Position numbers and translations under genes: made by a program. A stretch of DNA of 64,000 bases from contig JAJFFJ010000017.1 in NCBI GenBank assembly GCA_021776685.1, positions 62,001-126,000 of the forward strand, in the 5' to 3' direction. The notes under the pieces are model-generated. The model searched no databases, was not told the DNA's origin, and saw only the letters and a program-made list of their open reading frames with translations. This stretch comes from Alphaproteobacteria bacterium (GTDB lineage: Bacteria > Pseudomonadota > Alphaproteobacteria > Bin65). This document shows, in pieces, positions 57,412-61,531 of this stretch; positions within the stretch are counted from its first letter, which is position 1; each line of letters starts with the position of its first letter.

Positions 57412-58113
57412 CTAGCCCTCTGAGTAGCGGTAACCGATGCCGTAGAGTGTTTCGATCTTGTCGAAGTCGTCATCCACCTGCTTGAACTTCTTGCGCAGGC
57501 GCTTGATGTGACTGTCGATGGTCCGGTCATCCACATAGATATTCTCGCCATAGGCCGCATCCATCAACTGGTCACGGCTTTTCACATGGCCTGGCCGGGC
57601 GGCGAGAGACTGCAGGATCAGGAATTCCGTGACCGTCAACTGCACGGGCGCTTCTTTCCAGGTGCAGAGATGGCGGTCCGGATCCATGACCAGTTCGCCG
57701 CGCACGATGACCTTCTCAGCACTCTCCGACTTGTCGCCATTGGCAACGACGTCCGACCGGCGCAGGATCGCGCGAATCCGCTCGATCAGCAGGCGCTGGG
57801 AGAAGGGCTTGGTAATATAGTCATCTGCGCCCATGCGCAGGCCCAACACCTCGTCAATCTCGTCGTCTTTCGACGTCAGAAAGATGACGGGCATCTTGGT
57901 CGAGCCCCGCAGGCGGCTCAGCAACTCCATGCCGTCCATGCGCGGCATCTTAATGTCCAGAATGGCCAGATCTACCGGACGGCTGTTCAGGCCATCCAGT
58001 GCATCGGCGCCGTCGCTGTATGTGCGCACGGCAAATCCCTCGGCCTCCAGGGCCATGGAAACCGATGTCAGGATGTTCTTGTCGTCGTCAACAAGCGCGA
58101 TCGTATGGCGCAT
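57412..58113 (-). CDS. chvI: response regulator ChvI
   Basis: A 233-residue OmpR-type regulator. The receiver (1-120) has acidic residues at the start of [15 protein letters not shown], the phosphorylated Asp53 in [14 protein letters not shown], and KPF at about 104. The C-terminal winged helix includes [21 protein letters not shown] and [14 protein letters not shown]. In Sinorhizobium and Agrobacterium ChvI controls envelope, motility and central metabolism. Divergent from the riboswitch-tonB unit, with about 180 bases between. Confidence 0.95.
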
Positions 58114-58294: not shown

Positions 58295-58484
58295 CAGGTG
58301 GTCAAAACGCTTGTGAATGCAGGCGTTAGAGGGAATGCGGAAGGCGCACATCCACCATGGTGTGCGTTCAGCCGCAGCTGCCCCCGCAACTGTAAGCGGT
58401 GAGCCACGGGCCATTTTGCCACTGGGAAATCCCGGGAAGGCGGCCCGGACGCACTGATCCGCGAGCCAGGAAACCTGCCACCTG
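58295..58484 (+). ncRNA. cobalamin riboswitch
   Basis: An AdoCbl-type aptamer. The closing stem is CAGGTGG (58295-58301) with CCACCTG (58478-58484). Conserved core elements in order are GAGGGAATGCGGAAG, the invariant GCCCCCGCAACTGTAAGCG, GCCACTGGGAAATCCCGGGAAGG-like region, and the B12 box GCGAGCCAGGAAACCTGCC (58461-58479). Binding of cobalamin would normally lower expression of the gene downstream, here tonB. It is close to the divergent chvI gene. Confidence 0.93.
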
Positions 58485-58555
58485 AAGTCGTCACCCGCCG
58501 CTCCACGGGGTGTGGTTCGGGGCGCTCTGTGGCCTTGCCATGTCGTTAGCGGTGA

Positions 58556-58581
58556 CGGGGCGGACCGGTTGGTCCGTCGCC
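58556..58581 (+). promoter_or_regulatory. hairpin in the riboswitch expression platform
   Basis: GGACC-GGTT-GGTCC with flanking GGGC/GCCC makes a strong stem 70 bases past the aptamer and 34 bases before the tonB start. AGCGGTGACG just before it can also pair with CGTCACCCGCCGCT after the aptamer. No T-tract, so control may be on translation or through Rho. The exact switch is inferred. Confidence 0.4.
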
Positions 58582-58614
58582 CGGCAACGATATCGTAAGG
58601 AATGGCGCAGGCGG

Positions 58615-59709
58615 ATGGACGCGCAACTTCATAAGAACCACGGCAATACCCAAGCCGGTATCCCGGGCGGCATTGCAAACGCCGGTCCGATGGCGGCCGG
58701 GGACCACGCGCCGCGTGCGCCAGCCTCCCGCAGGGGCATTTGGTTCGGGGGATTCGTGATCGCGTCACTGGCAGCACATGGGGCAGTGGCCGGCGTGCTG
58801 TTGATAGGCCGGGATGCGCCGACGCCCTTGCCGGTGGTGACGGTTGAACTGGATCTTCGCCTCCCAGGCGGCGCCGGGCAGGCCGCGCCCACGCGGCGAG
58901 CCGCAAAGCCTGGCCTTGCTACCAGGACCGCAACGGCCGGGCAGCGGATAGCGGAGAAAAAGCCGAAGACACTGCCGCGTCCGCCAAAGCCCGCGGCCAA
59001 AGCGGCCAAGCCGAAGCTCAAACCGCCTGCCGATAAAAAGCTGGCGTCACCGGCCCAAAAGGCGCGCCCCCCGTCCCAAGTTTCCAAACCAATTCAGGTC
59101 GCCAAGACAGCGTCCCCTGCGCCGGCGGCGACTGCGCGGATGTACCGTGCCGTGTCGACCCAACCGGTAGTGCTGCGCCCGGCGCGGCCCCTGAACGCGA
59201 AGCCATCAAAGCAGGAAATCGCGCGGTTCCACAAAGCCCTGCCCAATCCCCGCGCCCAGTGGCAGGCCAAGGCTCGCCGCCAGGCGCGGCGCACCGTTGC
59301 CAGGGCGCCTGTCCGAAAATCACGCCATACCCGCCAGCCACCCCGCCAGCCACCCCGCCAGCCACACCGCCAGCAGCCGCGTCAGGTCGCGTCCCGCGCC
59401 TCCGCCGGCGCGCCGGCAGGCGCTGTCGTGCCGCCGCGCCCGGCCGGTGGCTTTGGCGGCAACCCCACGCCTCACTATCCGGCTGAAGCGCGGGACAATG
59501 GCTGGGAGGGCCGCGTGGTGCTGCACGTGCGTGTCAACGCGGCCGGCCGGCCTGACGGTGTCAGGGTCAGCCGCAGCAGCGGGTTTTCTGTGCTCGACGC
59601 CGCCGCGCGCCGGGCGGTCAGGCGCTGGCGCTTCCGGCCGGCCAGCCAGGCGGGCGTTGCGGTGGCGGCGTCGGTCCTGATCCCGATTCGATTCCGGCTT
59701 CGCCGGTAA
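58615..59709 (+). CDS. tonB: energy transducer TonB under cobalamin riboswitch
   Basis: A 364-residue TonB. A single N-terminal helix (about 42-64) carries the Ser51-x3-His55 pair in IASLAAHGAVAG that contacts ExbB/ExbD. A long Pro/Lys/Arg-rich periplasmic region follows, including KKPKTLPRPPKPAAK and repeats of PPRQ (59337-59386). The C-terminal domain (about 280-360) has TPHYPAEARDNGWEG and VRRWRFRPASQAG. The ATG at 58615 is preferred; a frame beginning at 58510 would start inside the riboswitch expression platform. TonB powers outer-membrane uptake of cobalamin and iron complexes. No receptor, exbB or exbD adjoins. Confidence 0.87.
   Translation: MDAQLHKNHGNTQAGIPGGIANAGPMAAGDHAPRAPASRRGIWFGGFVIASLAAHGAVAGVLLIGRDAPTPLPVVTVELDLRLPGGAGQAAPTRRAAKPGLATRTATAGQRIAEKKPKTLPRPPKPAAKAAKPKLKPPADKKLASPAQKARPPSQVSKPIQVAKTASPAPAATARMYRAVSTQPVVLRPARPLNAKPSKQEIARFHKALPNPRAQWQAKARRQARRTVARAPVRKSRHTRQPPRQPPRQPHRQQPRQVASRASAGAPAGAVVPPRPAGGFGGNPTPHYPAEARDNGWEGRVVLHVRVNAAGRPDGVRVSRSSGFSVLDAAARRAVRRWRFRPASQAGVAVAASVLIPIRFRLRR
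59337..59386 (+). repeat. 12-base tandem repeats in tonB
   Basis: CCACCCCGCCAG is repeated nearly perfectly (CCACCCCGCCAG, CCACCCCGCCAG, CCACACCGCCAG), encoding Pro-Pro-Arg-Gln units of the periplasmic spacer. Copy number could vary and change the reach of TonB. Confidence 0.7.
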
Positions 59710-59920: not shown

Positions 59921-61531
59921 GTGGCGCAGACGGGACCCGTGGTCAGCCGTAACGGGCTGGACCGGCATGGCATCAATACATCTGGTACCGAATTCTGGAA
60001 CCTGCAGGCGCCGTCGCTCTATGAAGAGTCGATCCGCCGCGGTGAGACCAGCCTGGCGGCAGGTGGCCCGATCGTCGCCATCACCGGTGAGCACACCGGC
60101 CGCTCCCCCAACGACAAATTTTTCGTCGACGAAGACTCCAGCCGTGATCACATCGACTGGGGCAGCGTCAACAAATCCACGACCCCCGAGAATTTCGACC
60201 GGTTGCTGGCCAAGTTGCTGGACTTTTACAGCACCCGAGACGCATTCGTGCAGGATCTGCATGCTGGCGCGGATCCGGACTATCGTCTGAACATTCGCGT
60301 CATTACGGAATGCGCCTGGCACAGCCTGTTTGCCCGCAACATGTTCCTGGCGCCCAAGGCCGACGAGCTGGCCGGTTTCGAGCCGGAGTTTACCGTCATC
60401 CAGGCGCCTTCGGTGATGGCCGATCCGGAGAGCGACGGCACCAACAGCGGCACCTTCATCCTGGTCAGCTTCGAGCGGCGCATAGTGATCATCGGCGGCA
60501 CGTCCTATGCCGGTGAAATCAAGAAGTCCGTGTTTGGCATCCTCAACTATCTCCTCCCGGCGCAGAATGTGCTGCCGATGCACTGCTCGGCCAACATTGG
60601 CGAGCGCGGTGACACGGCGATCTTCTTTGGCCTCTCCGGGACGGGAAAGACGACGCTCAGCGCCGACAGTTCACGCACCCTGATCGGCGACGACGAACAT
60701 GGCTGGACCCCCAACGGCGTCTTCAATTTTGAGGGCGGCTGCTATGCCAAGGTGATTAACCTGTCGGCAGCGGCGGAGCCGGAAATCTACGCCACCACCA
60801 GTCGTTTCGGCACAATCCTCGAAAATGTGGTGATGGACCCCGATACCGGCGTGCTGGATCTGGACGACAACCGTTATACCGAGAATACGCGCGCCAGCTA
60901 TCCCGCCAGCTTCATCCCGAATTTCAGCCCGGACGGAACCGGCGGCCATCCGGACAATGTCGTTATGTTGACCGCGGACGCCTTTGGCGTGCTGCCGCCG
61001 GTGTCAAAGCTGACGCCCGAACAGGCGATGTATCATTTCCTCTCTGGCTACACCGCCCGGGTCGCGGGAACGGAAAAGGGCCTGGGCAACGAGCCGCAGG
61101 CGACCTTCTCAACCTGCTTCGGTGCGCCATTCATGCCGCGGCATCCGTCGGTCTATGCCAAACTGCTGGGAGAAAAGATCGCTGCCAGTGGCGCAAACTG
61201 CTGGCTGGTCAACACCGGCTGGTCCGGCGGCGCCTATGGCGTCGGCGAGCGGATGAAGATTGCCCATACCCGCGCCATGATCCGCGCCATCCTCGACGGC
61301 TCGCTGGCCACCGCGGGCGCCACGGCGGACCCGAATTTCGGCCTGCTGGTGCCGGAGAACTGCCCGGATGTCCCCCAGGGTGTGCTCAATCCGAAGGACA
61401 CCTGGTCGGACAAGGGCGCCTATGACCAGATGGCCCACGAGGTGGCGAAACGGTTCGAGTCCAATTTCGAGCAGTTCAACGCCTATGTTGACGATGGCGT
61501 AAAGGCTGCCGCCATCCACGCCGCGGCGTAA
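59921..61531 (+). CDS. pckA: phosphoenolpyruvate carboxykinase (ATP)
   Basis: A 536-residue enzyme of gluconeogenesis converting oxaloacetate and ATP to phosphoenolpyruvate. The kinase P-loop is [11 protein letters not shown] (residues 237-247), followed by LIGDDEHGW with metal-binding Asp pair and [26 protein letters not shown] near 65 and the C-terminal [15 protein letters not shown] complete the family signature. Translation starts at GTG 59921 after GGAGGAAG. Divergence of pckA from chvI is a conserved alphaproteobacterial arrangement; here the riboswitch-tonB unit lies between them. Its product links to PTS through phosphoenolpyruvate. Confidence 0.96.

Follow-up and report, generated by a model that had tools for sequence, protein, structure and literature searches.

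The window, a stretch of 64,000 nucleotides, comes from a draft alphaproteobacterial genome (158 contigs, 98.85% complete) and carries a cobalamin riboswitch aptamer immediately before a tonB gene (Table 1). The aptamer is complete, and its score is far beyond chance: a covariance search (cmscan, Rfam) matched RF00174 end to end (model positions 1-189) with 111 bits (E = 5.9e-27), where the gathering score is 31.5 bits. This search confirmed an earlier sequence-only reading, which had described a complete aptamer with a B12 box and a closing stem about 130 bases before tonB. We counted 130 nt from P1, or ~120 nt from the end of the Rfam match, to the ATG at 58615. Among three candidate start codons (58540, 58615, and 58690), this ATG is the most likely one because AAGGA lies 13 nt upstream. 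A consensus promoter scan gave no + strand match upstream of the riboswitch-tonB unit, where a weak possible promoter would start the RNA at P1.

The 364-residue product has the features of a TonB energy transducer. It has a TonB_C domain (PF03544, E = 1.4e-25) and also matched TIGR01352 and TonB chains in the PDB. A single N-terminal transmembrane helix, GFVIASLAAHGAVAGVLLI, contains SxxxH, which is a hallmark of TonB. Between helix and TonB_C domain lies a Pro/Lys/Arg/Ala-rich spacer, in which these four residues make up 57% of positions 61-280. The spacer also contains a 12-base tandem repeat, CCCGCCAGCCAC (3.8 copies, 59330-59374), which is in frame, encodes RQPP repeats, and is possibly a length-variable site.

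Genes resembling chvG and chvI lie divergently upstream of the unit. Pfam annotation of the neighbours revealed no btuB or cobalamin-synthesis gene near it, as the sequence-only reading had noted for the genes after tonB. A btuB hidden downstream is ruled out, since the next genes are pckA and, beside it, one for an AMP-binding enzyme.

Table 1. Features of the riboswitch-tonB locus (window coordinates)
Feature	Position	Strand	Basis or remark
OmpR-type response regulator (ChvI-like), divergent neighbour	57412..58113	-	Pfam; ortholog also beside riboswitch-tonB in G001 and G003
Possible promoter, TTGACC-17-TAGGCT, RNA start at P1	58261..58289	+	sequence; weak, below promoter-scan threshold
Cobalamin riboswitch aptamer, RF00174	58282..58496	+	cmscan, full model
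Aptamer P1	58295-58301/58478-58484	+	cmscan and sequence
L5 segment CCCCG, complementary to L13 CGGGG	58382..58386	+	sequence; kissing-loop role inferred from PMC10653944
Aptamer segment GCCACTG	58418-58424	+	cmscan and sequence
B12 box	58463-58479	+	cmscan and sequence
Proposed antisequestor 5' strand CGTCACC	58489..58495	+	pairs with 58551-58557
P13-like hairpin CCAC-GGGGT-GTGG, carrying CGGGG (58506-58510)	58503..58515	+	sequence
CCTTGC, anti-Shine-Dalgarno strand of sequestor hairpin	58533..58538	+	minimum-energy fold; pairs with 58595-58600
Antisequestor 3' strand GGTGACG, inside sequestor hairpin in alternative fold	58551..58557	+	folding, leader comparison
GTAAGGA, probable Shine-Dalgarno of tonB	58595..58601	+	13 nt before ATG 58615
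tonB (364 aa)	58615..59709	+	PF03544, TIGR01352, PDB TonB chains
ATP-type PEP carboxykinase pckA, downstream neighbour	59921..61531	+	Pfam PF01293

The leader between aptamer and tonB

The terminator scan found no intrinsic terminator between the aptamer and tonB, in line with the earlier observation that the expression platform lacks a T-tract. The sole + strand terminator-like site (58723) is inside tonB and without a real T run, and such sites were not clearly enriched over shuffled sequences. Kissing-loop cobalamin riboswitches of the E. coli btuB type pair L5 with L13, sequester the Shine-Dalgarno in a hairpin, and are repressed by their ligand (PMC10653944). The window's leader shares their aptamer family, a predicted Shine-Dalgarno hairpin, and an L13 loop downstream of P1 that is complementary to L5, and by analogy we would expect ligand repression here too. 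The E. coli switch controls the receptor gene btuB, whereas this one would control the energy transducer. Most of the tonB and btuB leaders that we compared also have a (G)CGGG(G) motif no more than 25 nt past the aptamer.

We folded region 58480-58640 both freely and, as a proxy for the bound state, with region 1 and the P1 strand barred from pairing. The unpaired probability of the Shine-Dalgarno (58596-58600) was 0.00-0.01 in the free fold and 0.07-0.12 in the proxy, and forcing the helix CGTCACC (58489):GGTGACG (58551) mostly freed it. The folds therefore give both states, a Shine-Dalgarno hairpin and a mutually exclusive alternative helix, with energies far apart: across the full leader, the antisequestor fold came to -59 and the sequestor fold to -76 kcal/mol. 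Given this large difference in stability, switching would have to be cotranscriptional.

The putative antisequestor is present in all three tonB leaders (those of the window, G001, and G003) and recurs in several btuB leaders, two of which carry double changes (GATCACC:GGTGATC in the host genome and TGTCATC:GATGACA in G001). In the same comparison, the cbt-labelled leaders showed no such helix. The case for this helix draws on its repetition across leaders and on the double changes; we regard it as a supported model and not as proof, because against shuffled sequences the helix in single leaders is not significant (p 0.05-0.5). The anatomy of the leader, with the Shine-Dalgarno in a predicted hairpin and no terminator, argues for translational control, one of the two modes (the other being Rho-type) that had been guessed from the sequence.

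Receptor and TonB genes in the host genome

The host genome contains exactly two cobalamin riboswitches, one before tonB (contig C67) and one before btuB (contig C123). The latter heads a TonB-dependent receptor gene followed by genes for a periplasmic-binding protein, a FecCD-type permease, and an ABC ATPase (BtuF/C/D-type), with cobU convergent to the cluster. Among solved structures, E. coli BtuB is the best match of the receptor (E = 2.5e-27). Searches of the genome for plug and barrel domains of TonB-dependent receptors returned one gene each, the same BtuB. As the only such receptor found, BtuB would most simply be the client of the TonB in the window. A count of tonB genes, proposed as a check by the sequence-only reading, gave two TonB_C genes, one of them under a cobalamin riboswitch. 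The second, on contig C82, belongs to an exbB-exbD-exbD-tonB cluster (L032:6571-9241), and a scan of the surrounding 19 kb found no cobalamin riboswitch or receptor.

The position of tonB in relatives

All of the relatives compared are draft genomes. A stand-alone tonB with its own riboswitch and a divergent chvI occurs in three genera of the window's family (the host, G001, and G003), and G001 and G003 have one TonB-dependent receptor each. In G001, tonB is split over two contigs (start on C133, end on C340, with pckA further along C340); the break falls within the gene's Pro-rich portion, so tonB genes of this kind may be missed in drafts. G005 (74% complete) has the receptor, and no tonB was found in it. 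Six genomes of one genus, g3 (G004 and G006-G010), have one cobalamin riboswitch each, no TonB_C gene, plug matches that are weak only, and no BtuB-grade receptor. Thus, within the family, every genome in which tonB was found also has a BtuB-grade receptor. In G010, the riboswitch is followed by cbtA, a cobalt transporter gene (L053), and G006 has a near-identical ORF (L056), with riboswitches in G004 and G007-G009 that resemble those of these two loci; the combination of riboswitch-cbtA with no TonB_C gene suggests synthesis instead of uptake in these relatives.

In other relatives, riboswitch-btuB-F-C-D clusters end with a TonB of the window's type (G002, G011, G035, and G039); G041 shows the same spacing, and in G018 btuB is followed by tonB. 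Two kinds of operon resemble the window in TonB type and riboswitch class, and several of them in their btuB-type leader as well. These are the alphaproteobacterial riboswitch-btuB-btuF-btuC-btuD-tonB operons (L036, L037, L039, and L040) and the riboswitch-btuB-tonB arrangements, found in L038 and in three gammaproteobacterial contigs from a wider search with three TonB sequences as query (L144, L146, and L164). All of them place tonB at a distal position among the genes of the receptor operon; the window's tonB stands apart, under a riboswitch of its own. A riboswitch tree, mostly of low support, did not show the source of this tonB copy. The three gammaproteobacterial contigs carry the riboswitch, a btuB-like receptor gene, tonB, and a further gene, whose product (MGHRLSKI(Y/T)TRTGD...) resembles a cobalamin adenosyltransferase.

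To see how common the direct arrangement is, as the sequence-only reading had proposed, we counted same-strand riboswitch-TonB pairs within 9 kb in 289 alphaproteobacterial genomes. The survey crossed the best ~150 riboswitch matches, plus the riboswitch places in relatives, with the best ~150 TonB matches, and its counts are lower bounds. It yielded at least 19 pairs among the matches listed, of which 18 are 2.3-6.1 kb apart, leaving room for btu genes between; the window's pair, with the riboswitch 0.9 kb from the TonB_C domain, was the only direct one. By these counts, it is common for a cobalamin riboswitch to head an operon that includes tonB, and uncommon for tonB to stand alone behind one. 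An aptamer regular expression overlooked a known case (L069) and produced some chance matches, so its matches were checked with Rfam.

Proposed cobalamin control of a TonB for B12 uptake

We propose, with good confidence, that the riboswitch controls a unit consisting of tonB alone, that the TonB it encodes serves BtuB, the one TonB-dependent receptor of the cell, and that cobalamin turns off translation of tonB. Bound cobalamin would dock L5 on L13 and disfavour the antisequestor; the Shine-Dalgarno (58596-58601) would then be kept in its hairpin, and no TonB would be made. In the absence of cobalamin, the antisequestor would form, and TonB would be made at the same time as BtuB-F-C-D from the cluster under the other riboswitch. 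The sign of this response follows known btuB riboswitches by analogy. The window's tonB is the counterpart of the distal gene in the relatives' riboswitch-btuBFCD-tonB operons, separate from the btu genes and under its own riboswitch.

The sequence-only reading had left a choice between cobalamin control of the whole TonB supply and a dedicated TonB for B12 uptake. Its second half is the one that appears to stand: dedication to B12 uptake is well supported by gene content, since the sole receptor found is BtuB, under the other riboswitch, and the same tonB is found in the btu operons of relatives. We consider it very unlikely that the riboswitch limits a TonB used by many receptors, so that cobalamin status would set siderophore and other uptake. 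That just two TonB_C genes exist, one under the riboswitch, would suit such global control, but the one receptor detected is BtuB, G001 and G003 are likewise single-receptor genomes, and the second TonB comes with an exbB-exbD-exbD cluster of its own. A link between vitamin status and the entire TonB supply means little in a genome that yielded no further receptor for this protein; the switch most likely lowers the energy supply for B12 uptake at B12 sufficiency.

Also unlikely, if less so, is a relic riboswitch, or one that acts at transcription, by Rho or attenuation, rather than at translation. Action at transcription is compatible with the sequence, and the static fold has an antisequestor weaker than the sequestor; against this, the aptamer is intact with a conserved core, riboswitch-tonB is kept in three genera, no intrinsic terminator intervenes before tonB, and the Shine-Dalgarno lies inside a predicted hairpin. 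Returning to the dedicated, translationally controlled TonB, we lean toward a picture in which B12 uptake in this family consists of two separately located, parallel riboswitch units, one for the receptor and ABC transporter and one for the energiser, with cobalamin gating the transducer as a second tap.

In the cobalamin regulons surveyed in PMC3766115, transporters of B12 form one of the standard classes of target. The window resembles those regulons in having B12 transport as the target and differs in the putative control of tonB, a gene that a search of the survey's main text did not find. Among the papers that our literature search covered, none described a stand-alone riboswitch-tonB; we view the unit as a tidy but unsurprising variation on known B12 regulation. 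Riboswitch-linked tonB genes become annotatable as B12-uptake genes. Judging by the draft genome, this TonB has a single client receptor, which makes it a simple system in which TonB specificity and vitamin control can be tested directly. The TonB-like protein on C82 is very Lys/Pro-rich and has AxxxH instead of SxxxH in its helix; its exbB-exbD-exbD-tonB cluster sits in a genome where the searches for TonB-dependent receptors turned up BtuB alone, and this second TonB could serve BtuB.
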